A DNA stretch of 37,336 bases. It comes from a virus. Where the stretch lies: the IMG/VR virus record IMGVR_UViG_3300042731_004948, positions 1-37,336 of that record; one strand, written 5' to 3'. Shown here piece by piece: positions 2,272 to 37,336 of this stretch. A program made the position numbers and the translations under genes. The notes beneath the pieces are model-generated. The model was not told the DNA's origin and did not search any database. It saw only the letters and a list, made by a program, of their open reading frames with translations. The stretch's first letter is position 1; each line of letters starts with the position of its first letter.

Positions 2272-2676
2272 TTACCTATCGGTTGCTGAAATTCGACCGC
2301 CTCCATGCCAAAATTCCCAATCGCTAAAATCTCGAGGGATAAATTTAGGCATTCGTCTCTCTACTTGAGTCGAATCTATGGAACTACGGTCAGCGGATAT
2401 AGTGCCAAACTTTTTTAAAAATTGTTTCCATTTCGGGCTTTTTAATGCTTCGGCTGCAATTCTTTGTACTAAATCATGCTCCTCATTAGGATTCCCGAAT
2501 GAGGATATCGGCTTGCCCGGTCCTTTTAACCATTTATCGTAAAAGGTTTTATTTTTCCATTTAAAGCGTATCTCTACGCCATACCATTCATCTACAGAAA
2601 TGGGAATAAAATCTAAGTCCTTTAGCATTTTAGCAGGCCATTTAAACTCCTCATTTAAGTAGTCTCTAAATTTCAT
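2272..2676 (-). CDS. Tagged small protein (MKFRDYLNE|E)
   Basis: This 134-residue product starts with MKFRDYLNE, a clean copy of the shared tag, with predicted cleavage after Glu9 at L-N-E. The remaining 125 residues are unrecognised and rich in aromatic residues and Lys; the end reads DWEFWHGGGRISATDR. The gene overlaps the 3' end of the gp4-like nuclease gene by four bases (ATGA type), which indicates translational coupling inside the minus-strand late block. Packaging into the head is inferred from the tag and the head-gene neighbours. Confidence 0.78.
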   Translation of the reverse strand: MKFRDYLNEEFKWPAKMLKDLDFIPISVDEWYGVEIRFKWKNKTFYDKWLKGPGKPISSFGNPNEEHDLVQRIAAEALKSPKWKQFLKKFGTISADRSSIDSTQVERRMPKFIPRDFSDWEFWHGGGRISATDR

Positions 2677-3122
2677 TTGTTAAATAACTCCTTTTCCGTT
2701 AATATCTTAAACTCCATACCCATCTTCTTACAATATGCAGAAGCGGCTTTAAATTTAGCCGCATTCCGTGCGTACATTATTTCTCTTTCCATCAGGGTAT
2801 TCTTAGATTTCTTACCTCTCCTCGGCGGTCTGGTCTCCCTGTAAGGCTTTATTTCAATCAAGTATTTACGACCACCAGTCTCTAAATAAACATCTGGATA
2901 ATAACGCCTTACAGCAGGCTTGCCCTTATGTAACGTGGTCGGGTCTTGGTATTTTATTTCTATGCTTTCTGAAGACCATTTATCAATAGCCCAATTAGCA
3001 TCGCACCATTGAAAAAACAACCGTTCCCATGAACTCCGTACTAATATAGGATATTTACCTATGTATTTCTGTGGGTTTTTAGGAACATATTCTTTTGTGT
3101 TTTTCTTATGGCGTTTTATCAT
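2673..3122 (-). CDS. 4: Head completion nuclease, T4 gp4-like
   Basis: Proteins of this family (T4 gp4, formerly gp50/gp65) are needed to finish DNA-filled heads and have a PD-(D/E)XK nuclease-like fold. The 149-residue product shows YIGKYPILVRSSWERLFFQW (20-39) with the family's RSSWE, then YYPD (74-77) and LIEIKPYRET (88-97). This gives the core D77, then E90-I-K92. The C-terminal EFKILTEKELF is also typical. Length and motif order match the family. It carries no packaging tag, unlike both neighbours. It overlaps the following gene by four bases and the preceding gene by one. Confidence 0.87.
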   Translation of the reverse strand: MIKRHKKNTKEYVPKNPQKYIGKYPILVRSSWERLFFQWCDANWAIDKWSSESIEIKYQDPTTLHKGKPAVRRYYPDVYLETGGRKYLIEIKPYRETRPPRRGKKSKNTLMEREIMYARNAAKFKAASAYCKKMGMEFKILTEKELFNK

Positions 3123-3592
3123 TATTTTAAGCGTTTTAATTTAGGACCGACAAACTTTCTCTGACGTTTCATAGTCGATGTCCGGCCAAATTTAGAGAAT
3201 CGTTTTGCCTTACGAGCTGTTTTTTTACCTTTTGCGGAGCGTCTATATCTCCGACCTGCGACTCTGCGTTTAGCCCGTTTTCTTAAATGCTCCCGTCTAC
3301 GCTTACGGGCAGTTGCTAAGTCACGGCGTACCCTCTTTTTAAAAACTTCCATAAGAGCATCTTCATCTAACTGCTCTTCTGCATCGTTTTCTTCGTCATA
3401 ATCGGGGTCAAGTCCGTCCACGACTTCCATAATCATATATGCCTGTGCGTCTGATATCTGCTCTTCTTCAAGTGAAAAAAGTATACCAAGCATCGCATCT
3501 ACGATATCATCGTCCTCGGCTAAACCGTTATACTCGTCCATTTCAATGGTTTCATCCTCTAAAAACGATTCTATTTTATCTAAGGTTCTCAT
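3122..3592 (-). CDS. Acidic/basic bipartite protein, protamine-like tail, long-type tag
   Basis: The 156-residue product has two halves of opposite charge. Residues 1-80 are highly acidic, including EEEQ, DPDYDEENDAEEQLDEDA. Residues 84-156 are extremely basic, with repeated KR and RR clusters such as RRREHLRKRAKRR and GRRYRRSAKGKK, like a protamine or histone tail. The N-terminus MRTLDKIESFLEDE resembles the longer tag form (K-I-E-x-F-L-x-D/E), without a perfect [I/L]-x-E. Between the gp4-like nuclease and other tagged genes, a role in DNA condensation or in the prohead core is plausible but inferred. It is preceded by an AAGGAG-type site just before 3593. Confidence 0.75.
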   Translation of the reverse strand: MRTLDKIESFLEDETIEMDEYNGLAEDDDIVDAMLGILFSLEEEQISDAQAYMIMEVVDGLDPDYDEENDAEEQLDEDALMEVFKKRVRRDLATARKRRREHLRKRAKRRVAGRRYRRSAKGKKTARKAKRFSKFGRTSTMKRQRKFVGPKLKRLK

Positions 3593-3602
3593 TAATTACT
3601 CC

Positions 3603-4295
3603 TTATGCTGGTTCTGTATCATATCCACCACATTTAGGGCATTTAACCTCAAATGTGTTTTTGCCGATTTTCTTTTTAAAGCGTTTACCACATTCCATGC
3701 ATTGCATCGGGGTCGATGTTCCTTTGGCTTCGTTTACTTTTATGCCGAATTCTAATTGAAAATCACGTTTAGACATAGTCCACCACGGCTGCCAGCCTTT
3801 ACCTTTGCCTTTTTCAAAAACAGTTACGGTATCAGCCATCCACTCTGGGTCTCCCTTTTCATACGGATTTCCGATAACATATGCTTGAGTTGCATTTATG
3901 AGTTTAGCCCCTTTCGGCAATTTTCTTTCAGAATAATTACCTTTTAAAGCCTTTCCACGCTTTAATCCTTCCATCATACCGTCACCTTCGGCATATTCGG
4001 CATCTTCATCTTCACCATCTCCGGTATCAAAGGTTAAATTATTACCTTCTGGTGGATTAGTTTCTCCGGCATCACTACCTCTGGCAACTTGAAGCAACTT
4101 TTCTCCGGCTAATGCACTGACGACAGGGTCGTCATTAAGTTCACGAAACATAATCTCATTCCAGAGAACATCGTCAGTCGGGTTACGCCTAAATTTAGCG
4201 ATTAACTCCTCATCGGTATAATCCTGCGCTATGTACTCGTCAACTTGTTTAGTGGAATCCGCTAAGTATAAATTAATCTTTTTTACAACGCTCAT
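3603..4295 (-). CDS. 230-aa protein with C-terminal zinc ribbon and long-type tag
   Basis: The N-terminus MSVVKKINLYLADS matches the longer tag form (K-I-N-x-Y-L-x-D), with Asp in place of the cleavage-site Glu. The middle contains an acidic linker (DTGDGEDEDAEYAEGDG) and a segment with DTVTVFEKGKGKGWQPWW. The C-terminus is a zinc ribbon: MQCMECGKRF followed by FEVKCPKCGG, two CxxC pairs about 17 residues apart. An internal VNEAKG precedes the ribbon. Nucleic-acid or protein binding by the ribbon is likely; the actual target is unknown. AAGGAG stands 6 bases ahead of the ATG. Confidence 0.75.
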   Translation of the reverse strand: MSVVKKINLYLADSTKQVDEYIAQDYTDEELIAKFRRNPTDDVLWNEIMFRELNDDPVVSALAGEKLLQVARGSDAGETNPPEGNNLTFDTGDGEDEDAEYAEGDGMMEGLKRGKALKGNYSERKLPKGAKLINATQAYVIGNPYEKGDPEWMADTVTVFEKGKGKGWQPWWTMSKRDFQLEFGIKVNEAKGTSTPMQCMECGKRFKKKIGKNTFEVKCPKCGGYDTEPA

Positions 4296-4361
4296 TTTAA
4301 TCTCCTTATATTATTGTCCAAGCCCTCGTCCCGGAGGGGTTACGCATTTGCCTTTTACAGG

Positions 4362-4823
4362 TCACCATTTTTGTCCGGGCGGACATTTTTGGTCTTCTTC
4401 TTCTATACCGGCATCTTTTTCCATCTTTTTTAAGCGGTTATAATAGTCCGGTATTTCGTCAAGGTGGTCTAAAGCAATTTCCGCTGATAATTTGCGGTCA
4501 TTAACGTGCTCCATTTCAACCTCGATACCCATTTTTAATTGCTGTTTAATTTTATCAACCGATACACCATGTTTTTTGGCTATATCTTCTGGTGTTTTAT
4601 TATCGGCTTTCCCGCCTTTTATTTTATCCTCTTTAACGTACTGCGTTAATATAGCGTATATATGCTCTTCAAATTTATGAGGGTCTATGCCCATATCTTC
4701 CGCAAAATCGTGTACTGCATCATCAGAAGGATTGGGATTCTCCTTAAAGAACTTTTTAATTTTAGCCTTTATATCGCCATCCTTTTTGGCCTGCTCCTCC
4801 CTTAAAAATGCCCGTAGCTTCAT
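4362..4823 (-). CDS. Tagged protein (MKLRAFLRE|E); reading frame continues past an in-frame UGA
   Basis: The 153-residue product starts MKLRAFLREEQ, a standard tag with predicted cleavage after Glu9. The body is helical and charged; residues 24-70 contain two short helix-turn-helix-like repeats ending FAEDMGIDPHKFEEHI and AKKHGVSVDKIKQQL. It ends CPPGQKW then TGA. After the TGA the same frame continues PVKGKCVTPPGRGLGQ to TAA at 4311, completing a CPxGxxW-x-PxxxKCV motif found intact in the protein at 8471-8962. The 3' end may therefore be a nonsense variant or a readthrough site. It overlaps the upstream gene by four bases. Confidence 0.78.
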   Translation of the reverse strand: MKLRAFLREEQAKKDGDIKAKIKKFFKENPNPSDDAVHDFAEDMGIDPHKFEEHIYAILTQYVKEDKIKGGKADNKTPEDIAKKHGVSVDKIKQQLKMGIEVEMEHVNDRKLSAEIALDHLDEIPDYYNRLKKMEKDAGIEEEDQKCPPGQKW

Positions 4824-5233
4824 GTGTTATACTCCACTTTATGACGGCCGGTCGGGGTCTTACGTTGCTTGGCCATAATAGGTTTCATCCTATTACGCAC
4901 TTTCCCATCGGCGGACCGTTCTAAATCTTTTTTCTTTTTCTTAACCTTACCTTTATTCTGACGGTAATATTGGTCGGCATACATCTTTTTAGTTTTAGCC
5001 GTTTTTTTAGCCTTGACTTCTTCGTTTGCCCGTCCACCATGCCTTTTTAAAGCATTAAAATATTTCCAATAAAGGTCAGCAGTTTTTTTGCTTAGTTTAT
5101 CAAATAAAACATCACCAGTTACTCGGCGGTCCCAGTTTTTGCCCAGTTCCTTTTTAGCTGCTTTTTCAAATTCAAACCACAAAGAATCTATAATGTTTTG
5201 CGCTTCGTTTGCCATCCAATCGCCAAATTTCAT
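4820..5233 (-). CDS. Small basic protein with weak tag (MKFGDWMANEA)
   Basis: This 137-residue product starts MKFGDWMANEAQ, which has the layout of the shared tag but Met-Ala-Asn-Glu instead of [I/L]-x-E, so processing is uncertain. Residues 70-137 are very basic (KAKKTAKTKKMY, KGKVKKKKKDLERS, GRHKVEYNT), suggesting contact with DNA in the head. The N-terminal third is a probable helix bundle (DSLWFEFEKAAKKELGK). It overlaps the following gene by four bases and shares one base with the gene before it. The family is unrecognised. Confidence 0.75.
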   Translation of the reverse strand: MKFGDWMANEAQNIIDSLWFEFEKAAKKELGKNWDRRVTGDVLFDKLSKKTADLYWKYFNALKRHGGRANEEVKAKKTAKTKKMYADQYYRQNKGKVKKKKKDLERSADGKVRNRMKPIMAKQRKTPTGRHKVEYNT

Positions 5234-5826
5234 TATTTTACGTCTCTCCAGAAATTCTCAAGGTCGTCATCGTCCCATCTCCAATTAGCGGCTTTAGCAA
5301 CCTCAAAGAATTTTTCTTTTTTAATGGTTTTAGTTTTTACCTTCTTCTTTAAAAGATGGATGGTATCTTGGTACATTTCTTTAGTATATTTATCCCATGT
5401 ATCCGCAGTGAACCTATTAAGAGTTTGTATAACAGGCAATAATTGCTTTTTAGCATCCGCTTTTAATTCCTTTTTAGTCGGTTTCTTCTTTTTAACATTT
5501 ATTGAAAACCAAGATTTTTCACTATCTTCAACTGAAAATCCAATGCCTTTTAATACCGGAGATATCATTTTGATTAGTTTTTTATAGCCCGTAAAATCTG
5601 GCCAATCGTCATCTTCTTCGCCGGGACGGGGTGTATAAAAATCATATGCCCTAAACTGTAAATCCCACCATTCTTCATCCTTCCATTTATTAAGGGTTAT
5701 CTGGTCAGTCATATCAGGGCGGATTAGCCTTTTTAATTTAGCATATATATCGTTTATTTCTTCCCAAGTAACGCCTTTGCCTTTTGTGGTATCTCGTGCT
5801 TCGGTCAAATATCGTTTTAATCTCAT
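5233..5826 (-). CDS. Tagged 197-aa protein (MRLKRYLTE|A)
   Basis: MRLKRYLTEARD is a near-perfect copy of the tag, with Ala following the predicted cut after Glu9. The remaining 188 residues are unrecognised, rich in Trp, Tyr and Lys, with an acidic turn (PRPGEEDDDWPDF, about 67-79) and a basic centre (NVKKKKPTKKELKADAKKQL, about 110-129). The C-terminus ends WRWDDDDLENFWRDVK. It overlaps the upstream gene by four bases. Delivery as an internal head protein is inferred from the tag alone. Confidence 0.78.
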   Translation of the reverse strand: MRLKRYLTEARDTTKGKGVTWEEINDIYAKLKRLIRPDMTDQITLNKWKDEEWWDLQFRAYDFYTPRPGEEDDDWPDFTGYKKLIKMISPVLKGIGFSVEDSEKSWFSINVKKKKPTKKELKADAKKQLLPVIQTLNRFTADTWDKYTKEMYQDTIHLLKKKVKTKTIKKEKFFEVAKAANWRWDDDDLENFWRDVK

Positions 5827-6092
5827 CTTCTTATCCTCGGCCCGGCTTTGACTATATCACCAAATGCTACATCAAAATGACTTATTAAATCATCCAATCG
5901 GTCATAATCAGCAGCCATTTTTACATCTATAAACTCTTTTAATTCTCGGGCTTGTGTTTTATCGGCCACTTTTTTAAGGTCGGAAAGAGCTTTAAAATAT
6001 TTCTTTTGTGCAGCTCGTAGATTATCCCATTGTTTTTTATAAAATGGATTTTCTTCGTTTAAATGCTCATCAATCCTATCTAATATACTCAA
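5823..6092 (-). CDS. Small helical protein with long-type tag (MSILDRIDEHLNE|E)
   Basis: The 89-residue product begins MSILDRIDEHLNEEN. This is the longer tag form (R-I-D-x-H-L-x-E) with a perfect L-N-E at residues 11-13. The rest is predicted to be nearly all helix (KKQWDNLRAAQKKYFKALSD), ending in a basic GPRIRR. Four-base overlaps on both sides place it firmly in the minus-strand operon. The family is unrecognised. Confidence 0.76.
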   Translation of the reverse strand: MSILDRIDEHLNEENPFYKKQWDNLRAAQKKYFKALSDLKKVADKTQARELKEFIDVKMAADYDRLDDLISHFDVAFGDIVKAGPRIRR

Positions 6093-6289
6093 AGCAAACC
6101 TCCCTCTCGTATCTCCTCTATCTTCTCCTTAACGTCAGGCGCAAGGCCGGATATAATTTCCTCTATATTATCAGGCGAACCTGTAATAAGCTCCAACGCC
6201 TCATCTAAGGTTAGTTTTCGATATTTAAGTTTTTCTTTAAAATCGACTTCATACAGGTATCGATTTAATCTGGTAAGAGTCGTTACCAT
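6089..6289 (-). CDS. Small protein with long-type tag (MVTTLTRLNRYLYE|V)
   Basis: The 66-residue product starts MVTTLTRLNRYLYEVD, the longer tag form with L-Y-E at residues 12-14. The remaining ~50 residues are acidic and helical (LTLDEALELITGSPDNIEEI, APDVKEKIEEIREGGLL). It overlaps neighbours by four bases downstream and seven bases upstream. Despite its small size, both overlaps and the tag pattern argue that it is real. Its function is unknown. Confidence 0.72.
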   Translation of the reverse strand: MVTTLTRLNRYLYEVDFKEKLKYRKLTLDEALELITGSPDNIEEIISGLAPDVKEKIEEIREGGLL

Positions 6290-8470: not shown

Positions 8471-8962
8471 ATGCCAGCACCACCACGAGCAGGAGAAGAA
8501 AAAGATGAATTTTTAGGCCGATGTATTCCGGTTTACGTTAAAGAGGGCAAACCTCAAGACCAAGCAGTCGCTATTTGTTATAGTATGTGGAGACGCAAGG
8601 ACGAGGAACGGATTATCAAAAAAATTGATATGTACTTAGACGAAACCGAAGGCGGAGCAACCACTTCCGGGGATGTTGCCGTAAACACGTCCGGCAAATC
8701 GACCAGTATAGCCAAACGGGTAAGTTCTATCGGTTATGAATGCCCTAAAGGAGAAGTCTGGGACCCGAAACAACGAAAATGCGTTAAAAAAACCAGTGAA
8801 TCAGTTTTAGTCGGGGGAGCATATGTCGCCGGTGCTTCTAATGTGGCCGGTTCTGGTCAAACCAGAGTGGTCGGGGATAAGGATAATGAAATAGATGCGT
8901 TAAAAACTAAACCTAACGCACGATTTAATAAACTATTAGGAGCATATATTAGTGATGAGTGA
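8471..8962 (+). CDS. Cys-motif protein with internal tag-like site and intact CPxGxxWDP motif
   Basis: Residues 11-40 contain FLGRCIP, EGKPQDQAVAICYSMW, a paired-Cys segment I recognise from phage head and scaffold-associated proteins. It is followed by RIIKKIDMYLDETEGG (48-62), the longer tag form with L-D-E at 56-58 but placed internally. Then comes a Ser/Gly/Thr linker and CPKGEVWDPKQRKCVKK (about residues 91-107), the motif that is broken by a UGA in the gene at 4362-4823. If the internal site is cut, the 163-residue product would split into an N-terminal Cys domain and a ~105-residue C-terminal part. AAGGAG precedes the ATG. Confidence 0.74.
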   Translation: MPAPPRAGEEKDEFLGRCIPVYVKEGKPQDQAVAICYSMWRRKDEERIIKKIDMYLDETEGGATTSGDVAVNTSGKSTSIAKRVSSIGYECPKGEVWDPKQRKCVKKTSESVLVGGAYVAGASNVAGSGQTRVVGDKDNEIDALKTKPNARFNKLLGAYISDE

Positions 8963-9272
8963 AAAATTTAGACAATATTTAACAGAATCAAAAGTGGCGA
9001 GAACCATTTTAGACCAGATACGGGCTTTAGATAAATATGCTCTACCGGCTTGGGGAGCAAAGGATTTTGTAAGTTTTGATAAGGGTATCCAATTTGACGT
9101 CCGAGGTTCTAAACATCGTGGTCGGGTTATCGTGGGCTTAGATAAAGGCAAAGACCTGTATAACATTGAAATAGGTAAAATTAACCGGAATAACGATTGG
9201 GTATCGATTAAAAAAACAAAAGGGATACAAGCAGCAAATTTAGTAACTGCAATAGACGAATTGGTAGGATAA
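8952..9272 (+). CDS. Tagged 106-aa protein (MSEKFRQYLTE|S)
   Basis: The start may be GTG 8952 or ATG 8955; AGGAG ends 9 bases before the former and 12 before the latter. Either gives MSEKFRQYLTES, with L-T-E as predicted cleavage site. The rest looks like a small alpha/beta fold (GIQFDVRGSKHRGRVIVGL, NIEIGKINRNNDWVSIKK). Overlap with the previous gene's TGA indicates coupling. The family is unrecognised; packaging is inferred from the tag. Confidence 0.76.
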   Translation: MMSEKFRQYLTESKVARTILDQIRALDKYALPAWGAKDFVSFDKGIQFDVRGSKHRGRVIVGLDKGKDLYNIEIGKINRNNDWVSIKKTKGIQAANLVTAIDELVG

Positions 9273-20563: not shown

Positions 20564-20572
20564 GACACCCTC

Positions 20573-23230: not shown

Positions 23231-23394
23231 TCAGCGTCCCGTGCTTCCTTCAACTTTTTAATAATATAATCGATATCCGCTTTACTTCTGATATTTAAGG
23301 TTTGGCTTGGGATGCTTTGTGGAAAAACACCAAAATAAGTCAACTCATATTCCCCTTTTTCGTTTTTTTCTACCTTTGCTCCGCTTACCCTCAT
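23227..23394 (-). CDS. Small 55-aa protein between zinc-finger gene and polymerase
   Basis: This frame, under the usual size cutoff, starts ATG 23394 (MRVSGAKVEKNEKGEYELTY) after AAAGGA and stops with a TGA that overlaps the polymerase ATG. Its first 50 bases overlap the 3' end of the zinc-finger gene in another frame. The unoverlapped part, FGVFPQSIPSQTLNIRSKAD then a charged helix IDYIIKKLKEARDAE, has normal coding character and leaves no gap in the operon. Function unknown. Confidence 0.55.
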   Translation of the reverse strand: MRVSGAKVEKNEKGEYELTYFGVFPQSIPSQTLNIRSKADIDYIIKKLKEARDAE

Positions 23395-25468: not shown

Positions 25469-25485
25469 AAAGCCTCCCCATAAAC

Positions 25486-25800
25486 CTACCTCCAGATGCT
25501 ATTTTTGTGAACCCAAATTTGCTTTGCTCTGGTTCGGTTTTTAATATTTCTTATCCAATTTTCACGAGTGATGCTCCCATAAACACCACATACGTCATCT
25601 ATATATTTTTTTATAGGTATAAAATTCTCTGGATGGCGGACATCTTTTTTGCGCTCGATATCCTTATAAATGGTAAAGTGAGAAGCCCCGCCGCTTACGA
25701 AAACAATACCGGGTGCTTTAAGCAAACCAACCATAAATCGACCTTTTTCATCCTTAAATACCATATATAATTTAAGATTCAGCCCATCTTTCCCGTCCAT
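25486..25800 (-). CDS. Hypothetical early protein, 104 aa
   Basis: First gene of the replication operon. I chose ATG 25800 (MDGKDGLNLKLYMV) since AAAGGA precedes it; ATGs at 25824 and 25818 lack a ribosome site. The N-terminal half looks like a small beta sheet (YMVFKDEKGRFMVGLL, GIVFVSGGASHFTIY). The C-terminal half is basic and helical (RENWIRNIKNRTRAKQIW). No known domain. Stop TAG is followed closely by the helicase ribosome site. Early expression is inferred from the sigma70-type promoter 41 bases upstream. Confidence 0.68.
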   Translation of the reverse strand: MDGKDGLNLKLYMVFKDEKGRFMVGLLKAPGIVFVSGGASHFTIYKDIERKKDVRHPENFIPIKKYIDDVCGVYGSITRENWIRNIKNRTRAKQIWVHKNSIWR

Positions 25801-25823
25801 AGTATTTTTTCCTTTCATTTTCA

Positions 25824-25831
25824 TATAAATA
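25824..25831 (+). promoter_or_regulatory. T4-type late promoter candidate upstream of uvsY-uvsW
   Basis: An exact TATAAATA on the plus strand, 76 bases before uvsY, outside the coding part of the divergent gene if that starts at 25800. In T4, uvsW is expressed late, so a late signal here is plausible. Confidence 0.4.
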
Positions 25832-25840
25832 TATACAGCA

Positions 25841-25869
25841 ATTATACCTTAAAAACGGCAAGTTGTAAA
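25841..25869 (-). promoter_or_regulatory. Sigma70-type promoter TTTACA-N17-TATAAT for the replication operon
   Basis: On the minus strand, TTTACA (25869-25864) and TATAAT (25846-25841) are 17 bases apart. Transcription would run into the hypothetical early gene, helicase, zinc-finger and polymerase genes. Its -35 box is one half of the palindrome shared with the plus-strand promoter. Confidence 0.72.
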
Positions 25870-25876
25870 TTTACAA
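25863..25876. repeat. 14-bp perfect palindrome joining two divergent -35 boxes
   Basis: TTGTAAATTTACAA is perfectly self-complementary; each half supplies the TTTACA -35 hexamer for one direction. One bound protein here could control both promoters. A second inverted repeat, GCAC-N5-GTGC (25880-25892), lies in the spacer of the plus-strand promoter. Confidence 0.7.
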
Positions 25877-25898
25877 TCGGCACTTTTTGTGCTAAAAT
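25870..25898 (+). promoter_or_regulatory. Sigma70-type promoter TTTACA-N17-TAAAAT for uvsY-uvsW
   Basis: TTTACA (25870-25875) and TAAAAT (25893-25898) are 17 bases apart on the plus strand. The expected start point is only about three bases before the uvsY ATG, so this mRNA would be nearly leaderless and lack a normal ribosome site. Confidence 0.6.
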
Positions 25899-25907
25899 GG
25901 ATAAAAA

Positions 25908-26318
25908 ATGACGAATGAAGAAGTATTGGCAAAATTACACGAAGAATATCCTATTGAGGATATGGTAAAATTTACGGAATTAAATTTACAGGAAAAACTG
26001 CAGGATAATCCCTACCAGATAGTCCACTTCCGAGATTTGTACCACAAAGAACTGGCGGAGCAAGACCGCTTAACCGACCTGTATGAAAAATTAATGGGTC
26101 AACGGTACGAGTATTACCGTTTTAAGGATGACCACGAATGGACGAAGGTCGAGATAGAGAAGTATGCTCTACCTAAAGACGAAAAAATTATCCAAATGAA
26201 AAAGATTATTAGGAGGCAGGAAGTGCGAGTCCGCTTCTTTGAGATGTGCTGGCGAGCATTTGAAAAGCAAGGATGGTCTATGAAGGGCTTTATTGATACG
26301 ATTAAAGGGGGATTTTAA
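25908..26318 (+). CDS. uvsY: Recombination mediator, UvsY-like
   Basis: UvsY loads the UvsX recombinase onto single-stranded DNA coated by gp32. The 136-residue product matches T4 UvsY in length (137) and pattern. It has a charged helical N-terminus, DLYEKLMGQRYEYYRF in the middle, and a C-terminal helix with EVRVRFFEMCWRAFEKQGWS then MKGFIDTIKGGF, parallel to the T4 C-terminal region ending in a hydrophobic-helix and short-tail layout. The following gene is uvsW, as expected for a T4-like recombination module. The ATG lacks a good ribosome site; a GGA lies 9 bases upstream. Confidence 0.82.
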   Translation: MTNEEVLAKLHEEYPIEDMVKFTELNLQEKLQDNPYQIVHFRDLYHKELAEQDRLTDLYEKLMGQRYEYYRFKDDHEWTKVEIEKYALPKDEKIIQMKKIIRRQEVRVRFFEMCWRAFEKQGWSMKGFIDTIKGGF

Positions 26319-27770
26319 TTGGTAACGATTAAGGTTTTTGACCCCTTACATCTAAAAATCGATACCGATGACGCAGATTATATGGATTTAATGCGTCAGG
26401 AGTTTACACGCCGAGTACCGAATTTCCAGTTTACGGCCGCCTATAAATCCGGCCATTGGTCGGGTTCAGTCTGTCTAATTGATAGGTGGAAAAACACCTT
26501 TCCTTACGGGCTATTAATGGATTATGTACGGGAGCATAAGCGGAGTTTTCCCCGTATGTCCATTAAATTAGAACCGGCAGTTAAAGAGATATTCCGGGGA
26601 CCGGAATTCGATGTTGTATACGACCTGCCGACCCATAAAGTTCGGCCATATCAAGATGATTGCATCCGTGCCTGCATAAAATATACCAAAGGCATCATTC
26701 GTTGTGCGACTGCGTCCGGTAAATCGCTTGTTATAGCCTATGTTATCCATAATTTGATACGGGCAAGTATGATACAAAAAAGTATCATTATTGTACCGAG
26801 TACGGGTTTAATAACGCAGTTTTATCAAGACCTCGTGGATTACGGGTTTGATAGTAAAAAAATAGGTACGGCATACGCCAGACGCAAGCAATGGGATAAA
26901 CAAATCGTTATATCTACATGGCAGACCCTTGCTAAAAATGCCGAAAGATTAAACGAGTTTGATTGTATTTTCTGCGATGAAACTCACGGGGCTAAAGCCC
27001 ATGAGCTAAAAAAACTTCTGGAAAATGCCACGAAAGCAAAATATAGATTAGGTTTTACGGGGACGCTACACGCAGGAACTCTGGATAACTGGAATACAAA
27101 ATCGTATTTAGGGCCGGTAATACGGGAATACCCGGCCGGTCTGTTAGCGGACGAGGGATGGATTAGTAAAGCCGTTATCCATATGCTTAATATAGAGTAT
27201 CACCAAGATACTTGGGACGGAGAATACCACGATATTAGGGACGCTATATTCCAGAATCCATATCGTTTAGACCTGATTAAGGGTTTAACCGAATATTTAG
27301 ACCATAACGTCTTAATATTAGTTGATAAGGTGGAAAAAGAAGGCGAGCTGTTAGAGGGTCTTTTAGCGGACGGCAAAAAAGAAGTGGTATTTCTATCTGG
27401 CCGGGACGATGTTAAGGTACGGGAGGAGTGGCGAAAGGCTGCAATGAAGCGCAAGGATATAGCTCTGATAGCCACATATGGCATATTTCAGCAAGGAATT
27501 AACATCCCTAACCTAAAATACATCATCTTGGCGGCACCGTTTAAGGCTAAAATAAGGGTACTTCAGTCGATTGGAAGGGCGTTGCGGATTCATTCAGATA
27601 AGAAAGACGGAGCGCAGATTTTTGATATCCATGACCATACTAAGTTTTTTGAAAAATACGGGGATATCCGTCTGCGATATTATGACCAAGAGAAGTTTGA
27701 GGTTAAGGAACACGTCTTTTATGAGGGTGAATCTTTTGATTTTACTAAGGTTTATTCTATTTCTTCATAG
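26319..27770 (+). CDS. uvsW: UvsW-like DNA/RNA helicase (SF2)
   Basis: UvsW unwinds branched DNA and R-loops and helps switch T4 from origin- to recombination-dependent replication. The 483-residue product has an N-terminal DNA-binding domain (~1-100), then SF2 motifs: Q-like VRPYQDD (108-114), Walker A ATASGKS (130-136), DETH box (220-223), motif III GFTGTLH (245-251), QQGINIP (391-397) and QSIGRALR (416-423). Start is TTG 26319, directly after the uvsY stop, with AAAGGGGGA upstream. T4 UvsW is 503 residues. Its 3' end overlaps the convergent gene by 14 bases. Confidence 0.92.
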   Translation: MVTIKVFDPLHLKIDTDDADYMDLMRQEFTRRVPNFQFTAAYKSGHWSGSVCLIDRWKNTFPYGLLMDYVREHKRSFPRMSIKLEPAVKEIFRGPEFDVVYDLPTHKVRPYQDDCIRACIKYTKGIIRCATASGKSLVIAYVIHNLIRASMIQKSIIIVPSTGLITQFYQDLVDYGFDSKKIGTAYARRKQWDKQIVISTWQTLAKNAERLNEFDCIFCDETHGAKAHELKKLLENATKAKYRLGFTGTLHAGTLDNWNTKSYLGPVIREYPAGLLADEGWISKAVIHMLNIEYHQDTWDGEYHDIRDAIFQNPYRLDLIKGLTEYLDHNVLILVDKVEKEGELLEGLLADGKKEVVFLSGRDDVKVREEWRKAAMKRKDIALIATYGIFQQGINIPNLKYIILAAPFKAKIRVLQSIGRALRIHSDKKDGAQIFDIHDHTKFFEKYGDIRLRYYDQEKFEVKEHVFYEGESFDFTKVYSISS

Positions 27771-28128
27771 ATTTAATACTAACAATCCGTTCCCCGGATT
27801 TGAGCTGTTCTTCGGCTTGAACCTCTGCGTGGGATTCACTGGAAGCCATAATTGTAATTTTACGTTTATTGGTTTTAACGACCCATACATCAGGAAACAT
27901 TCCTTCTTTTAATCCAACCCATTTCCCTTTAGGCTTCTTTTTAGGAGCATTAATCATTTTTTCTAAACGGGAGACTATATTTTGAGTGTTATTGGCTAAA
28001 GTATCAATCGCAGTTCTATTATCCGTTGTTCTTTTTGCGGTTGCGGCTGTCCGTTGTTCGACTGCCTTCAAACGGTCTATAATTTTTTTTAAGAGTTGTA
28101 AGGTACGTTGGTCTTGTTCTTTGTTCAT
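27757..28128 (-). CDS. Helical protein with small C-terminal beta domain, unknown
   Basis: The 123-residue product has an N-terminal coiled coil (LLKKIIDRLKAVEQRTAATA, then DTLANNTQNIVSRLEKM), a basic Pro/Lys hinge (NAPKKKPKGKW) and a compact beta region (FPDVWVVKTNKRKITIMASS). No tag. It shares one base with the upstream tagged gene (TAATG). Last gene of a short minus-strand cluster, convergent with uvsW. Function unknown. Confidence 0.7.
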   Translation of the reverse strand: MNKEQDQRTLQLLKKIIDRLKAVEQRTAATAKRTTDNRTAIDTLANNTQNIVSRLEKMINAPKKKPKGKWVGLKEGMFPDVWVVKTNKRKITIMASSESHAEVQAEEQLKSGERIVSIKSMKK

Positions 28129-28382
28129 TATTCGATTACCAGTACGACTTCATTCTTTTTAGATAGATAGCGGTATTTTTTGCCCTGCATATCCAGAGCA
28201 TCTACCAAATTCATTATCACTTCATCAGCTTCGGCCGGTACGCTTATTTTATTATTGCTGGCTTTTACGTCATATCCGCCGACTTTAACCGTATTATTTG
28301 GATTTTGTACGAGTTTTAGCAGTTCTCTTTTTTCTCGGCTTGTTAGTCTTTCCTCGTTTAGTAAGTACTCTCTCAGCCTCAT
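28128..28382 (-). CDS. Tagged 84-aa protein (MRLREYLLNE|E)
   Basis: The start MRLREYLLNEERLTSREKRE gives L-N-E with predicted cleavage after Glu10. The ATG has GGGAG 9 bases upstream and lies 89 bases inside the 3' end of the zincin-like gene, in another frame. The C-terminal half is a small beta unit (GGYDVKASNNKISVPA, KKYRYLSKKNEVVLVIE). Function unknown. The only tagged gene on the minus strand outside the 2272-7181 block; it sits behind a late-promoter octamer. Confidence 0.73.
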   Translation of the reverse strand: MRLREYLLNEERLTSREKRELLKLVQNPNNTVKVGGYDVKASNNKISVPAEADEVIMNLVDALDMQGKKYRYLSKKNEVVLVIE

Positions 28383-31945: not shown

Positions 31946-32455
31946 ATGAGTTCGCTAATTAAAAGAATTAACCGGATTGTAAACGAGGTTGGTAGTCTTG
32001 ATAATTGGATGGATAAGGCAGATTATGAATATAGAGGTGGTCCTGCTAAAGAAAAAGCACAAAAAACCGTCCCTATGTATAAATCCTTAAACGATGCCGC
32101 CATATATCAACCGGAATTAAAACGGGGCAAGACCGAAGTATGGTATTATAAAGGTGATTACCAAATTATGGCCGACTGGGGATTGGGATATCGTTGGCTT
32201 GCTAAAAAAGGATTGCTCCCACGTTCACCTAAAGAACTTAGGGAAACGCATATACCACTCGGTAGCATTAAAGAGACCAATCTGGAAAAGGCATGGATGG
32301 CACTGCAGGGTGAAAACTGGAGTCCTAACGGGGAAGCCAGAAACCTAATACGCAAAAAAGGATTAACCCATACCAGTATGAGCGTTGGGGACATTCTTAA
32401 AGTCGGAAATTCATGGCATTTAGTAGACGGTGTCGGCTTTAAAAAATTATTTTAA
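31946..32455 (+). CDS. Phage protein with WSPNGEAR motif; long-type tag-like start
   Basis: The 169-residue product has a conserved C-terminal block, LQGENWSPNGEARNLIRKKG then LTHTSMSVGDILKVGNSW, which I recognise as widespread in phage-encoded small proteins of unknown function. The N-terminus MSSLIKRINRIVNEVGS resembles the longer tag form (R-I-N-x-I-V-x-E), but has Val rather than Ile/Leu at the key position. A basic central part includes DNWMDKADYEYRGGPAKEKA. AAAGGAG stands 6 bases before ATG, directly after the holin gene. Confidence 0.75.
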   Translation: MSSLIKRINRIVNEVGSLDNWMDKADYEYRGGPAKEKAQKTVPMYKSLNDAAIYQPELKRGKTEVWYYKGDYQIMADWGLGYRWLAKKGLLPRSPKELRETHIPLGSIKETNLEKAWMALQGENWSPNGEARNLIRKKGLTHTSMSVGDILKVGNSWHLVDGVGFKKLF

Positions 32456-32475: not shown

Positions 32476-32994
32476 ATGAGGTTAAATAATTACTTAAAAG
32501 AAGAAAAAGTGGTCGGGCTTTTAGGCAAAAAACTGGCTAAACTTAAAAAAGAACACGGATATATTTCTAAATCTATGCTAACTAAAAAAGAGCTTGAACA
32601 ACTTAAAAAATCGGGTGGAAAATTGGCAGAGGCAAGCCGTCAAGGACCGAGCGCAATAGACGGCAAAAGCAAACAAGCTGCTAAAAACGCCATTCTTAAA
32701 GCGACTCAAAAGTTTACCCGAAATAAACTTTATAAAGATGATTATTGGCGTGGGCCTAATGATATTTTTAAAGTTTTTGATGAAGAATTAAATGTAAGTT
32801 GGCATCTTGAAAAAACCGAATACAGGAAGCGACCTGAAGACGATATGCCGACAAGTAAGGTATGGGATTATACGATAACCTTTGTAAACAACAAAGGCAA
32901 AGAACAAAAGATAGGCGGTCAGGTCATCGCTTCCGGTGCCGGCAGCGTAAAAGACCCCTTAGACCGCTATGATGTTGTCGTAACGGTTTGGTAA
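32476..32994 (+). CDS. Tagged 172-aa basic protein (MRLNNYLKE|E)
   Basis: The start MRLNNYLKEEKVVG matches the short tag, with L-K-E and predicted cleavage after Glu9. The body has a long Lys-rich helix region (GKKLAKLKKEHGYISKSML, TKKELEQLKKSGGKLAEASR), where LAEAS at about 51-55 is a second possible L-x-E site. The C-terminal beta region is WDYTITFVNNKGKEQKIGG, ending YDVVVTVW. Function unknown. ATG 32476 follows AAGGATGG. Confidence 0.75.
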   Translation: MRLNNYLKEEKVVGLLGKKLAKLKKEHGYISKSMLTKKELEQLKKSGGKLAEASRQGPSAIDGKSKQAAKNAILKATQKFTRNKLYKDDYWRGPNDIFKVFDEELNVSWHLEKTEYRKRPEDDMPTSKVWDYTITFVNNKGKEQKIGGQVIASGAGSVKDPLDRYDVVVTVW

Positions 32995-33006: not shown

Positions 33007-33294
33007 ATGCGATTTAAAGATTATTTATCGGAAGCCAAAGACTGGCAGAAAAAAAATAAACGATTTGAACTTGAGGTTAAGTATAGTAGTGATGCCGATA
33101 AAATTCCAATTTTATTTAGGGATGCGGGGCTTAAAATTGGGAATGATTGGGATTGGTTAACCTCAAATATTATAGGAATAGGCAAAAAGGCATTTGATGA
33201 GGTAGAGGATTGGCTAATGTTCGGTAAAAAGAACAAAGATGGTTCATGGCCGATAATGAGTGTAGGGACAATTCCACCTAATAAGAGAAAGTAA
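33007..33294 (+). CDS. Tagged 95-aa protein (MRFKDYLSE|A)
   Basis: MRFKDYLSEAKDWQ is a standard tag with Ala after the predicted cut at Glu9. The rest looks like a small alpha/beta fold (RFELEVKYSSDADKIPILF, DVEDWLMFGKKNKDGSW in approximate form), ending TIPPNKRK. AAAGGAG is 6 bases before ATG. The stop overlaps the CCA-adding enzyme's ATG by one base, so the two are translationally coupled. Function unknown. Confidence 0.77.
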   Translation: MRFKDYLSEAKDWQKKNKRFELEVKYSSDADKIPILFRDAGLKIGNDWDWLTSNIIGIGKKAFDEVEDWLMFGKKNKDGSWPIMSVGTIPPNKRK

Positions 33295-34724
33295 TGCGAT
33301 TTAAACGATATCTTGCGGAGGCAAGGCAAATGTTTAAAGAGTGGCAAAAATATGTGCATGATAATAAAGAACTTACAGCCGCTGTCGGCGTCCTTGATAA
33401 AATAAATAAGTCTGGATACAAGGCTTATATAGTAGGGGGAACGGTACGGGATATTGTTCTCGGAAACCTTAAACCCCACGATATAGATATAGCAACAAAT
33501 GCGCCAATGGAAGAACTTGAGCGTATGTTTAAAACTTTTGATATCGGCAAGTCTAAAGATTTCGGTATCGTAGTGGTTAGGCAAGGCCCATTCTCCTTTG
33601 AAGTGGCGCAATTTAGGCAGGATGGAAAATACAAAGATGGACGCAGACCGGAAGCGGTTACAATTTCAGGCAGCTTTGAGCAGGATGCGGCAAGACGAGA
33701 TTTTACAATTAATGCAATGGGCATTAACGCCAGCGGAGAGATTGTTGATTATTTTGATGGAAGAAAAGATATCCAAAACAAAGTGCTTAAAACCGTTGGC
33801 GACCCTCGAGAGAGATTCGGTGAGGATTATCTCCGAATGCTCCGAGCACCAAGATTTGCTTCAAAGCTGGGCTTAGAAATTGAGAAGGGAACCGAAAAAG
33901 CAATACAAAAATTGTCGACTAATATAAAAGAGCTTGCGCCAGAACGCATATACGATGAGCTGATTAAAGCGGCTTCGCAGAGTGGCGACAAGTTTGCGGA
34001 TTATATCGTCCAGTTGGATAAATTAAAACTCTTAAAATTTATCTTACCGGAGGTCGTAAACCTTAAATGGTTTAGGGAAAATTTGCACCATCATCCCGAA
34101 ACAAGGGGGCAAGGTGGAACAGTATATAGTCACGTATTAGCTGCCCTGAGAAAGAGCGACACAGCCGACCCTATAAAGAATTTGGCTATATTATTGCATG
34201 ATGTAGGGAAGGGAACAACCTTTGCACAGAAAGAGGGGCTACCTACCTATTTTGAACACGCTAAAATGGGCATCGAACTTGTACGGCATATCGCTAACCG
34301 ACTGCGAATGAGCAATAAAGATAAGGACGCTTTACTATTTGCAGTCGGCAACCATATGAAGTTTCATAATATCCTAAAAATGAGGCCGTCTAAAATTGCT
34401 AAACTGGTAAGCGATGACCATTGGGACGTCCTTTTAGCGGTAGCCAAAGCAGACGAATTTGCACGTGGTGATACCTTTATGCACAAAGGTGAATTTGAAA
34501 AAATAGTCGATAAGGCTATTAAAATAAAAGAGAAGTTTGGTATGCCGGTCGTCAATAAACAGTTAAAACTGGTGGACGGCAAGCACGTTATGAACCTTAC
34601 CGGCCTTAAACCGGGGCCAAAAATTGGCGAGATTATCCGTAAAACTACAGAATGGATTATGGATAATAACGTGGATGACCAGACTAAAATAGATAATTAC
34701 ATTAAAAAAATTGCAGGAGAGTAA
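33294..34724 (+). CDS. cca: CCA-adding enzyme / tRNA nucleotidyltransferase with packaging tag and HD domain
   Basis: CCA-adding enzymes build or repair the 3' CCA end of tRNAs. The 476-residue product is complete for class II. The nucleotidyltransferase motif is YIVGGTVRDIVLG (45-57) with catalytic D-I-D in PHDIDIAT (Asp63, Asp65). RRDFTINAMG (134-143) and DYFDGRKDI (152-160) follow, then RERFGEDYLRMLRAPRFASK (172-191), the ERxxxD helix. An HD phosphohydrolase-type domain comes next with His280 and LLHDVGK (300-306). It begins MRFKRYLAEARQ, the best form of the tag, which ordinary CCA enzymes do not have. It shares one base with the upstream tagged gene. Confidence 0.93.
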   Translation: MRFKRYLAEARQMFKEWQKYVHDNKELTAAVGVLDKINKSGYKAYIVGGTVRDIVLGNLKPHDIDIATNAPMEELERMFKTFDIGKSKDFGIVVVRQGPFSFEVAQFRQDGKYKDGRRPEAVTISGSFEQDAARRDFTINAMGINASGEIVDYFDGRKDIQNKVLKTVGDPRERFGEDYLRMLRAPRFASKLGLEIEKGTEKAIQKLSTNIKELAPERIYDELIKAASQSGDKFADYIVQLDKLKLLKFILPEVVNLKWFRENLHHHPETRGQGGTVYSHVLAALRKSDTADPIKNLAILLHDVGKGTTFAQKEGLPTYFEHAKMGIELVRHIANRLRMSNKDKDALLFAVGNHMKFHNILKMRPSKIAKLVSDDHWDVLLAVAKADEFARGDTFMHKGEFEKIVDKAIKIKEKFGMPVVNKQLKLVDGKHVMNLTGLKPGPKIGEIIRKTTEWIMDNNVDDQTKIDNYIKKIAGE

Positions 34725-35003: not shown

Positions 35004-35657
35004 ATGCGCTTTGAACAATATTTAACGGAAAAATATGCGATAGAAGTCGCCGTCCGTGATGCGAGAAAGGCGATAGCGTTGTTAAAAGACGAAAAAATAA
35101 AGCATAAATCAGACGGGTCTAACTATTATACGTTTAAATCTGAGGATGATTTATATGCGGCAGAGGATGCTTTTAAACGGGCTAAAATCGAAATTCTTGA
35201 ACTTAAAGAAGCGGTAGAGGTTGCCTATACGGACTTGCGTAAAAACAAACGGATGCGGAAAAAGTTTAAAGACCAAAAAGCCCTTGAGAAATGGCTTGAT
35301 AAAATGGAAGGCGATATTAAAGTGGACGCTTACCTAAACGAGGCTAAAAAAATAAAATCCCGAAATACCATATGGGGTTTTTATAACGAGGTTGCTAACC
35401 GACTTGGGGATAAAATGGCACCTGAAGCCTTTAGTAAGGCCGCTAACGCTATTATGATTAGGTTTAAAGTTGATGCAGGGACGGCACGAGATTATCTGGA
35501 TTCTCGTAGCGGAAGGCATCTGGCGGATTCACTTTCGGACGCTCAATTGGGTTCCCCTAATGCGGTAAATATGATGAAACATCCTTGGATTAAAAAGGAT
35601 TTTACGAGTTTTATAAAAGGCTACGACCCTAAAGAATTTGCAAGGAGTGTACGATAA
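35004..35657 (+). CDS. Double-tagged 217-aa protein (MRFEQYLTE|K and internal AYLNE|A)
   Basis: I chose ATG 35004 because AAGGAG precedes it by 7 bases and the tag MRFEQYLTEK starts there; an upstream in-frame ATG would overlap the previous gene. A second site, KVDAYLNEAKKIK, lies at residues 106-118 (L-N-E 111-113), resembling the tag of the protein at 18834. Cleavage at both would give two ~104-residue products. The first half is helical (KAIALLKDEKIKHKSDG, RKNKRMRKKFKDQK); the second contains IWGFYNEVANRLGDKMAPEA and DYLDSRSGRHLADSL. TAATG overlap with the next gene. Confidence 0.77.
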   Translation: MRFEQYLTEKYAIEVAVRDARKAIALLKDEKIKHKSDGSNYYTFKSEDDLYAAEDAFKRAKIEILELKEAVEVAYTDLRKNKRMRKKFKDQKALEKWLDKMEGDIKVDAYLNEAKKIKSRNTIWGFYNEVANRLGDKMAPEAFSKAANAIMIRFKVDAGTARDYLDSRSGRHLADSLSDAQLGSPNAVNMMKHPWIKKDFTSFIKGYDPKEFARSVR

Positions 35658-35974
35658 TGGCGGCACCTAAATTAGTATATAAAAAGAAAGAATTGCTTAA
35701 AATGGGATGGGCTACAGTCGGTGGACGAATAGAGGATTATGCCCATATATATAATAAAAAAGGCCCGAAAGCAGCTTACGCTGCAATTAAAAGCCATTAT
35801 GGTGAAGAGAATACGGACGATGTTTATCGTGGGATGCTCGTTTACCTAAAAGGCGGGACTGATTCCTATTATAACGAGCGTACTTTTCAGTCATTAGCTG
35901 AAGATAAAATTTATGAAGCATATGAACGGTCTATTCTTCTGGTAACAGAAGCGAATTTGAATAATGAGATTTAA
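35657..35974 (+). CDS. Small protein, tag-like site near C-terminus
   Basis: The 105-residue product starts MAAPKLVYKKKELLKMGWAT, with a helical centre (EDYAHIYNKKGPKAAYAAIK, DDVYRGMLVYLKGGT). It ends IYEAYERSILLVTEANLNNE-I. The C-terminal LLVTEAN is tag-like but in an unusual place. ATG overlaps the previous stop; its own last 11 bases overlap the J-domain gene. Function unknown. Confidence 0.68.
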   Translation: MAAPKLVYKKKELLKMGWATVGGRIEDYAHIYNKKGPKAAYAAIKSHYGEENTDDVYRGMLVYLKGGTDSYYNERTFQSLAEDKIYEAYERSILLVTEANLNNEI

Positions 35975-36272
35975 ACGCTATTTACAAGAATCTAAAATGA
36001 CTGATGTGGAAGCATTATCAATCTTCGGCCTAACGCCGGATGATTTAGGGAATAGTGCGCTTATAAAAAAACGCCATCGGGATTTAGTAAAAACATATCA
36101 CCCCGATAAAATCGGTAAAAATGATATGATGGTAAAAGTAAATTTGGCGTATGAGATAATTAAAAAACTTAAACCGAGTAAAATATCAAATAAGGATGTG
36201 GAAAATTTAATGGCCGATTTATATCCCATCTTTAAAAAATCTAAACATAGATTTAAGGGAGTGTACGCATGA
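35964..36272 (+). CDS. J-domain (DnaJ-like) protein with packaging tag (MRFKRYLQE|S)
   Basis: J-domains stimulate the ATPase of DnaK/Hsp70 through their HPD loop. The 102-residue product is MRFKRYLQES (tag, predicted cut after Glu9) followed by a J-domain: TDVEALSIFGLTPDD, helix II IKKRHRDLVKTYHPDKIG with HPD at 46-48, then helix III MVKVNLAYEIIKKLK. A short basic C-terminal helix follows (LMADLYPIFKKSKHRFKGV), with no Gly/Phe or zinc region. It overlaps the upstream gene by 11 bases and the downstream gene by four. The tag suggests it travels in the virion; that is inference. Confidence 0.88.
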   Translation: MRFKRYLQESKMTDVEALSIFGLTPDDLGNSALIKKRHRDLVKTYHPDKIGKNDMMVKVNLAYEIIKKLKPSKISNKDVENLMADLYPIFKKSKHRFKGVYA

Positions 36273-36505
36273 GTAAATTTGAAAAATATATTACAGAAGG
36301 AAGTGCATCTATAAGGGCAATAAAAGGCAAAGCTAATATGGAAGTAGCCTTTGGTTCCCCTGCTATTAATATTAAAGACCCTAAAACAGGCATGGGTATC
36401 CGAGTTATTTTTCATGATAAAGATGTACAGCAAGCAGTTTTAAATTTTAAAAATAAGTTTGATGTTACATTTGATGTAACAAATTTTCCAACAGATAGTT
36501 TTTAA
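36269..36505 (+). CDS. Tagged 78-aa protein (MSKFEKYITE|G)
   Basis: The start MSKFEKYITEGSAS has I-T-E, predicted cut after Glu10. The remainder is a small beta-type protein (RAIKGKANMEVAFGSPAINI, GMGIRVIFHDKDVQQAVLNF), ending KFDVTFDVTNFPTDSF. Coupled by a four-base overlap to the J-domain gene. Function unknown. Confidence 0.75.
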   Translation: MSKFEKYITEGSASIRAIKGKANMEVAFGSPAINIKDPKTGMGIRVIFHDKDVQQAVLNFKNKFDVTFDVTNFPTDSF

Positions 36506-36514
36506 GGAGCAAAT

Positions 36515-36787
36515 ATGAGGTTCAAGGATTATTTAACTGAAGCGGATGCTAAACATTGGGTTACGAGTATTACAAGTGCGACCCATGAATATATGTTTTT
36601 AGGTGGTGGATACAAAGGCAAACCTGAAAACGATGAGGCGAGAAAAAAGGCTATACAGATTAGAAAAAAACATCCTGAATTAAAAAGCGGGACTATTAAA
36701 CAATTTAGGTTTAGAGAAAGTGATGTACGAGGCAAACTTGATAAATTAAGGGAATTGCCTGTCGGTGCAAGGAGAGGAAGAATATGA
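36515..36787 (+). CDS. Tagged 90-aa basic protein (MRFKDYLTE|A)
   Basis: MRFKDYLTEADAK is a perfect tag with Ala after the predicted cut. The rest contains ATHEYMFLGGGYKGKPENDE and a basic helical end (KKHPELKSGTIKQFRFRESD, ELPVGARRGRI). AAGGAG precedes ATG. It overlaps the next gene by four bases. Function unknown. Confidence 0.76.
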   Translation: MRFKDYLTEADAKHWVTSITSATHEYMFLGGGYKGKPENDEARKKAIQIRKKHPELKSGTIKQFRFRESDVRGKLDKLRELPVGARRGRI

Positions 36788-37302
36788 GGTTTACAAGATT
36801 TCTTAAAGAAAGTGTAATAGACGATGCTCTAAAAGTTGATGAGCCGTCAGTCCGCAGAAAATATAGCGAAGAGGGTGTAAAGAAAAAATTAGACCTTATT
36901 CAAAAGGCTATAAAGGAGCTGCGTGGTAGCTCTAAATATGACGATGACGCTAAAGACGCTATTATGGCTGATTTAGAGGATAAACAAGATAAATGGAGTA
37001 ACGTGGACTCCGAAACAAAACCCGTTAAAGTAGCACAAGCCCCACCTGAAGGCGAAGAAGGTGGCGGAGAAGCCCCACCAGAGGGCGAGGCCGAAGCCGA
37101 TGCTGAAGCTGAAAAGGAAGAAGAGGATAAGGCTAAAGAGAAGGAAGAAGAGGACGCCGCAAAAGAAGAGGATAAGGCTAAAGAAGAAGAAGATAAGGAA
37201 AAGGAAAAGGAAAAAAAGGAAAAGGAACGGATGGAAAAGGCCGATAAAGCGGCGGCTAAAAAAGAAAGTCGGCTGATTAAATCTAAAATATTATTGAGGT
37301 AA
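36784..37302 (+). CDS. Tagged protein with long Lys/Glu low-complexity tail (MRFTRFLKE|S)
   Basis: The start MRFTRFLKESVIDDALK is a standard tag. Residues ~10-75 are helical. Residues ~80-100 are Pro/Glu/Gly-rich (APPEGEEGGGEAPPEGEAEA), and ~100-160 form a continuous Lys/Glu/Asp/Ala helix (KAKEKEEEDAAKEEDKAKEE). The end is basic (KKESRLIKSKILLR). Highly charged helices of this type occur in phage scaffold and core proteins, so it may be a prohead core component. AGGAAGA ribosome site. Confidence 0.75.
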   Translation: MRFTRFLKESVIDDALKVDEPSVRRKYSEEGVKKKLDLIQKAIKELRGSSKYDDDAKDAIMADLEDKQDKWSNVDSETKPVKVAQAPPEGEEGGGEAPPEGEAEADAEAEKEEEDKAKEKEEEDAAKEEDKAKEEEDKEKEKEKKEKERMEKADKAAAKKESRLIKSKILLR

Positions 37303-37304
37303 AA

Positions 37305-37336
37305 ATGGCAAAATACGAAAAATACCTAACCGAGCA
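37305..37336 (+). CDS. Tagged protein, only first 10 codons in window (MAKYEKYLTE)
   Basis: Two bases after the preceding stop a new frame begins MAKYEKYLTE and runs off the window end. The visible part is exactly the tag, ending in L-T-E. The body of the protein cannot be seen. It shows that the tagged cluster continues to the right. Confidence 0.65.
   Translation, partial: MAKYEKYLTE

Follow-up and report, generated by a model that had tools for sequence, protein, structure and literature searches.

The internal proteins IPII and IPIII of bacteriophage T4 share an N-terminal tag, the capsid-targeting sequence. In laboratory work this targeting device is employed for loading foreign proteins, and it may have served in nature as a general loading system. 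Mutation of T4 IPIII has shown that targeting depends on residues 4 and 7 and processing on residues 8 and 10, and that a change of residue 10 to D leaves targeting in place but stops cutting (PMC9026906). Here, we describe a 37,336-base IMG/VR record, IMGVR_UViG_3300042731_004948 (the window, meaning this whole stretch), a fragment of a T4-like phage in which 19 genes open with a common core of the form hydrophobic-x-x-[YF]-[LI]-x-E. We read this tag, with a probability of about 0.86, as a capsid-targeting sequence of the IPIII type that has been extended to some 40 exchangeable proteins per genome. Judged from sequence, targeting of the tagged proteins to the prohead and cleavage of the tag are highly probable.

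The closest relative of the window is IMGVR_UViG_3300027917_000020 (G1; 161,607 bases), the two portals being 95% identical. The capsid protein of this clade is encoded on 99 stretches, and isolate phages are remote from it (portal identity around 30%). Other contigs of the clade are G2 (92 kb), G9 (59 kb), G11 and G12 (127 kb), G13 (120 kb) and G14 (81 kb), all of them fragments of 59–128 kb. The initial annotation had assigned the form M-[RK]-[FLY]-x-x-[YF]-[LI]-x-E to 17 window genes. All 17 carry the core at a plausible start, and the exact form is confined to 11 (2272, 4362, 5233, 17146, 32476, 33007, 33294, 35004, 35964, 36515 and 36784); the remaining six (8952/8955, 17753, 18834, 28128, 36269 and 37305) share the [YF]-[LI]-(x)-x-E end but have one or two additional residues. 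The core is also present in the two longer clean forms claimed at 5823 and 6089, which complete the 19. Two tag lengths with the same end core occur in the clade, MR[FL]KxYLxE, which is frequent in the window and G1, and the longer ..KIDxYLxE, which is frequent in G9.

Gene starts were set by a script blind to the tag (60 starts in the window, 241 in G1). The strict form stands at 10 of the 60 called starts of the window and at none of its 207 internal methionines. This count rises to 11 with the conserved start at 33294, which the script put 36 bases late and for which the tagged start is backed by 18 loci; it also misses 37305, which runs off the contig end. In G1, 20 of 241 starts have the strict form where 0.013 would be expected, and none of 771 internal methionines does. 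The looser pattern [YF][LI]xE occurs near gene starts 15 times in the window (0.7 expected), 31 times in G1 (1.7), 17 times in G2 (1.0) and 15 times in G9 (0.6), with no excess in T4 (4 versus 3.7) or RM378 (2 versus 2.2) and a small one in S-SM2, Mosig and C48C1.

When a profile score of at least 9 is taken to define a tagged protein, G1 has 40 such proteins, G13 21, G2 16, G9 15, G14 13, G12 12 and G11 11, so that the 20 or more proposed initially is, if anything, low. The contigs outside the profile training (G11–G14) have 10–21 starts each at this score, compared with 0.1–0.5 expected. The bodies behind the tag are unrelated, as had been claimed: the 18 scored tagged proteins of the window fall into 18 families by phmmer, and the 40 of G1 into 40. 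Searched as a DNA pattern, the strict form gives 25 matches in G1, 10 in G13 and 8 in G14, and 0–2 per phage in a set of 15 isolates or single-cell phages (T4, KVP40, Aeh1, RB49, Acinetobacter 133, phiM12, Cr30, S-PM2, P-SSM2, HTVC008M, S-SM2, Mosig, C48C1, RM378 and AG-345-F15). A T4-style pattern reaches its maximum of 4 among these 15 in T4 itself. Since other T4-like phages carry a few likely tags each by motif score, e.g. MKSFFQFLSE in S-SM2 and MIKNFSQYLLEE in C48C1, the signal is general in T4-like phages and expanded in this clade.

When the 249 T4 genes are ranked by a profile built from the clade only, gp61.1, IPII and IPIII take the first three places. Residues 4, 7, 8 and 10 of IPIII align with the profile core at positions -6 (F/L/I/Y), -3 (Y/F), -2 (L/I) and 0 (E), and 120 of 126 tags have E as the residue preceding the expected cut (P1), a proportion partly inherent in the profile. 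A few tags of the clade end in D, e.g. those at 3603 in the window and at 27750 in G9, and by analogy with the IPIII mutant these proteins may be targeted yet uncut. For T4 itself, the best match to the profile, gp61.1 (NC_000866, 18966-19130; 54 residues, annotated as hypothetical), begins with MKTFKEFIKE and is free of internal [LI]xE, which makes it, from its sequence, a candidate for an unrecognised T4 internal protein.

The gp21-like protease that the initial annotation had proposed to locate beside the portal is present there in relatives. Peptidase_S77 is above cut-off in 17 of 20 related contigs (10/10 in a first set and 7/10 in a second), and in G1 the gene, at 106877-107500, lies just past the portal and one small gene, at the very point where the window ends. 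The protease gene was not found in the window contig, which stops within its T4 gp20-like portal gene (2..1570, minus strand; PHROG portal E 8.6e-99; truncated by the left contig end), before the expected place; from its position just downstream of the portal in relatives, the window's protease would be expected beyond the contig end. In relatives, the capsid protein carries a propeptide some 40 residues long. Its end is [LIM]xE in almost every one of the roughly 36 distinct relatives, mostly as [YFW]LxE followed by A, T, S or G, and this end aligns, by eye, with the propeptide and cut site of T4 gp23. Because the capsid-protein propeptides share its end, the tag probably ends in the maturation site of the clade. 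As a separate observation, the prohead protease gene of one relative (IMGVR_UViG_3300022555_000017, 12292-13965, minus strand) holds an intein (Intein_splicing 3.4e-9, LAGLIDADG) after WGELGHPE.

Tagged bodies that meet the protease in the prohead would be expected to avoid its motif. The tagged set was defined from the first residues only, and tests of depletion and charge in the bodies are therefore independent of the tag. With one protein per homology cluster from seven contigs and the expectation taken from composition, the observed-to-expected ratio for [LI]xE is 0.82 in tagged and 1.19 in untagged bodies, a ratio of 0.69 (permutation p 2e-4, the minimum of the run). The depletion is replicated in G1 alone (0.69, p 4e-4) and in the remaining six (0.71, p 3.5e-4), and it is seen within the late region of G1 (0.67, p 5e-4); untagged early and late genes are equal in this respect (0.96, p 0.33). 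None of the control motifs is significantly depleted (reversed, 0.92; [LI]xD, 1.08; [LI]xK, 1.07; [LI]x[QN], 1.21; [LI]xR, 1.08; [VF]xE, 0.96). The depletion holds for the tagged bodies as a group, and some single bodies keep [LI]xE. Mature IPI, IPII, IPIII and gp61.1 of T4 contain zero such motifs against 3.6 expected, and the scaffold proteins of the clade contain 12–13 each in about 280–300 residues. Tagged bodies are also basic, like the T4 internal proteins (+0.025 versus -0.016 charge per residue, p 6e-9), with net-positive families making up 69% of the tagged and 37% of the untagged. The protease, the profile match, the capsid-protein site and the site depletion lend good sequence support to the proposal that the tagged proteins are packaged.

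Several tagged bodies are enzymes. In the window, the CCA-adding enzyme/poly(A) polymerase at 33294..34724 (plus strand; MRFKRYLAE/A, the slash marking the expected cut; tag 33294-33320; Pfam PolyA_pol 2.3e-32) has homology to solved enzymes in the PDB that begins at residue 22-29, behind the tag, and its tag is kept at 18 of 18 orthologous loci with the start present, about 13 of which are distinct. A J-domain protein is tagged at 35964..36272 (plus strand; MRFKRYLQE/S; tag 35964-35990; Pfam DnaJ 3.2e-6, slightly below cut-off). Tagged proteins of relatives include a RimK-like ATP-grasp protein, an IrrE-like metallopeptidase (a weak match), a carbon-nitrogen hydrolase, a HAD phosphatase, a cytidylyltransferase with DUF6267, an amidoligase and NT5C. 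One further tagged family has conserved LYRG...TT...E elements in alignment (G2 22934, G11 23962, G12 3388, G13 56327 and 61090). It may be a T4 Alt-like ADP-ribosyltransferase; its AlphaFold model has a pLDDT of 51, and it has no PDB match by sequence. Head-packaged ADP-ribosyltransferases and effectors in myoviruses have support in the literature (PMC9503650).

Comparison with G1 reveals exchange of the bodies behind the tag. In the long-form gene at 5823..6092 (minus strand; MSILDRIDEHLNE/E; tag 6054-6092), the start, the upstream DNA (52/60) and the tag DNA (37/39) are kept and an unrelated body follows straight after the E codon. At 2272..2676 (minus strand; MKFRDYLNE/E; tag 2650-2676), the G1 gene in the same place, 110226, has a similar tag and an unrelated body, and at 36269..36505 (plus strand; MSKFEKYITE/G; tag 36269-36298) the tag DNA is identical (30/30) against only about 46% for the body. 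The untagged gene at 27757..28128 (minus strand) corresponds to two genes in G1 (135592-135980), the second of which has the tag MRFKDYLCE through a local change of about 20 bases; the sequences suggest that a tag was gained or lost in place, the pair being compatible with either direction. Within G1, three identical MRLKRYLTE tags use three codon sets, which indicates that selection acts on the tag peptide. The variety of the bodies and their exchange also hint, indirectly, that the tag may suffice to bring a foreign protein into the head. What is new is the scale, the occurrence of enzymes among the tagged proteins (CCA-adding enzyme, J-domain protein, RimK), and the cargo exchange directly behind the tag. 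No such tag expansion was reported in the literature searched, the coverage of which left out most subscription journals and preprints.

The other tagged genes of the window are distributed over both strands. Those on the minus strand are found at 4362..4823 (MKLRAFLRE/E, DUF5661; tag 4797-4823), 5233..5826 (MRLKRYLTE/A; tag 5800-5826), 6089..6289 (long form, MVTTLTRLNRYLYE/V; tag 6248-6289) and 28128..28382 (MRLREYLLNE/E; tag 28353-28382), the last overlapping the end of the upstream gene, likewise in the relative. Several coordinates of the initial annotation are the low ends of minus-strand genes, with the tag at the opposite end. On the plus strand, tags open the genes at 8955..9272 (MSEKFRQYLTE/S; tag 8955-8987), 17146..17436 (MRYDKFLNE/A; tag 17146-17172), 17753..18064 (MKFRDYLINE, one residue longer; tag 17753-17782), 18834..19172 (MKVDYEKYLTE/A; tag 18834-18866), 32476..32994 (MRLNNYLKE/E; tag 32476-32502), 33007..33294 (MRFKDYLSE/A; tag 33007-33033), 35004..35657 (MRFEQYLTE/K; tag 35004-35030), 36515..36787 (MRFKDYLTE/A; tag 36515-36541) and 36784..37302 (MRFTRFLKE/S; tag 36784-36810), and a gene start at 37305..37336 (MAKYEKYLTE) is cut by the right contig end. 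About nine looser versions had been listed in addition, a weaker set overall in which 3603, 31946, 34730, 3122, 17423 and 4820 are plausible. Here, 3603..4295 (minus strand; MSVVKKINLYLAD/S) has D in place of E at the expected cut and a score of 4.1, and 31946..32455 (plus strand; MSSLIKRINRIVNE/V) scores 4.6, with 9.4 in the relative. The candidate at 6283 (MAETYQAFYINE) was discarded as a probable false positive, the motif being missing from its homologues.

The block at 19169..27770, which encodes a transglycosylase, DNA polymerase B, a DnaB-like helicase and a UvsW-like helicase, is tag-free, as are the large structural proteins, both as first described. The T4-like gene set further includes a gp2-like DNA end protector and a gp4-like head closure protein. 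A long-form tag-like stretch (RIIKKIDMYLDE) lies some 50–60 residues inside the protein at 8471-8962, as in the propeptide of the T4 capsid protein, and from its sequence this protein may have a long propeptide. At 7298-7747, where gene direction flips, a PAS-domain protein with a GTG start could be a sensor in a phage. The genes at 9694-10134 and 10079-10579 form a tandem pair of paralogues that have cysteine motifs (CDGCTLCC and CEHCE-type) and no Pfam match. About eight related GIY-YIG homing nuclease-like genes are found in G12 (IMGVR_UViG_3300002220_000189). The capsid protein's sole match in the genome collection, a short contig in a Thermoplasmata bin, is probably mis-binned and was not used as a hint to the host.

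In the mechanism we propose, the hydrophobic residues at -6 and -3 would dock a tagged protein on the prohead core during head building. A gp21-type protease would cut after [LI]-x-E, upon which the tag would depart and the freed body stay in the head with the DNA. Once limited to a few proteins, the device would have spread to about 40 of them per genome, enzymes included, the tag working as a plug-in socket behind which cargo bodies are swapped directly while the tag is retained. By analogy with T4, ejection of many of the bodies into the host along with the DNA is probable, and there they would act as takeover or counter-defence proteins. Presence in the virion, actual cleavage, ejection and function are what we infer here. 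Several points weigh against this reading. The clade is known here from uncultured contigs and gene calls alone, and the window's own protease is unseen, its contig ending inside the portal gene. Most tagged bodies lack a domain recognisable in Pfam or PHROGs, and clade members besides G1 carry fewer tags (11–21 in fragments of 59–128 kb). The propeptide of T4 IPI is longer and different, so that the signal is a loose one, and packaged T4 Alt retains four [LI]xE between its two known cut sites, which makes site depletion a tendency and no rule. Finally, some tagged genes adjoin scaffold and protease, such as 105880 of G1, and may encode prohead core proteins instead of cargo.

The last point leads to the alternative that the tag targets the prohead and is cut, with bodies that serve head assembly, DNA condensation or the core and are no effectors. 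IPIII influences head assembly in T4 (PMC9026906), several tagged genes are neighbours of the protease and scaffold genes, and the tagged bodies are basic, all of which would fit. Nevertheless, we consider it unlikely: the CCA-adding enzyme, RimK ATP-grasp, CN_hydrolase, HAD phosphatases and cytidylyltransferase have no known assembly role, and the rapid exchange of bodies behind a fixed tag in close relatives suits an arms race better. A further alternative is that the protease degrades the tagged proteins as the head matures, the fate of the core proteins gp22, gp67 and gp68 in T4; proteins consumed in this way would need an identical targeting signal. The depletion of cleavage motifs in the bodies to 0.69 of untagged, opposite to the clade scaffold, renders this most improbable.

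The tag could also direct proteins elsewhere, to the tail, a membrane assembly site or a chaperonin, its final E being part of an amphipathic helix and no cut site. Several tagged genes lie among the tail and neck genes of G1, and the N-terminus of T4 gp23 directs to GroEL, according to a passage in PMC10052503. This is improbable in view of the clade profile, which selects the T4 capsid-targeting proteins, the P1 E in 120 of 126 tags, the specificity of the depletion for [LI]xE and the identical site in the capsid protein. That the tagged genes are diverged duplicates of common descent, or the tag a DNA-level signal, i.e. a shared ribosome-binding or regulatory element read as protein, is nearly excluded. 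A Shine-Dalgarno context is common to gene starts and the codon diversity of the tags is slightly under random (0.42 versus 0.51); on the other hand, the bodies are unrelated, identical peptides are written in different codons, and tags stand at gene starts only and are absent from 132 G1 genes outside the structural regions, a descriptive count with boundaries drawn post hoc.

The tag is readable from sequence and can be checked by the purging of protease sites, which yields sets of candidates for injection in phages that are uncultured. These sets contain dozens of unknown families, in the position in which one would look for proteins of takeover and counter-defence. To our knowledge, no more than a handful of injected phage proteins have been described, and virion proteomics has been required to add to them. 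A tentative extension, to which we give somewhat less than even odds, is that of an open-ended delivery platform, in which one tag loads dozens of exchangeable proteins for injection, including RNA-processing and protein-modifying enzymes, the tag DNA is the joining point for cargo, and the injected set outpaces change in the rest of the genome.

Among described systems, IPI, IPII and IPIII of T4 (tag MKTYQEFIAE) resemble the clade in a short N-terminal peptide with hydrophobic residues at the targeting positions and an [LI]-x-E end, in unrelated basic bodies without internal [LI]xE (depleted as a group in the clade), and in an S77 protease in the genome or in close relatives. They differ in number, T4 having about four such proteins and the clade 11 to about 40 per contig, in the consensus, which in the clade is M-[RK]-[FL]-x-x-Y-[LI]-[NT]-E or the longer ..KID.YL.E, and in that the clade has full enzymes among its bodies and exchanges bodies behind the tag. 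The virion ADP-ribosyltransferase Alt of T4 is likewise a packaged enzyme with a short cut propeptide, and it is injected; its propeptide, MELITE, is 6 residues long, and a further cut is made C-terminally. The LYRG/TT/E family of the clade lacks detectable sequence homology to solved structures. The giant phages SPN3US and phiKZ package many proteins, some with propeptides cut after x-x-E, and mass spectrometry has identified eight substrates with N-terminal propeptides (PMC10052503). In these phages an S80 protease cuts the ejected inner-head proteins, and the propeptides are mostly longer than 100 residues, with no shared ten-residue tag. The head-packaging signal of DarB in phage P1 and the polyvalent and MuF-fused effectors also rely on N-terminal packaging of host-acting proteins; these are one protein or large fusions, whereas in the clade the small proteins number dozens and each bears its own tag (PMC9024508; PMC9503650).

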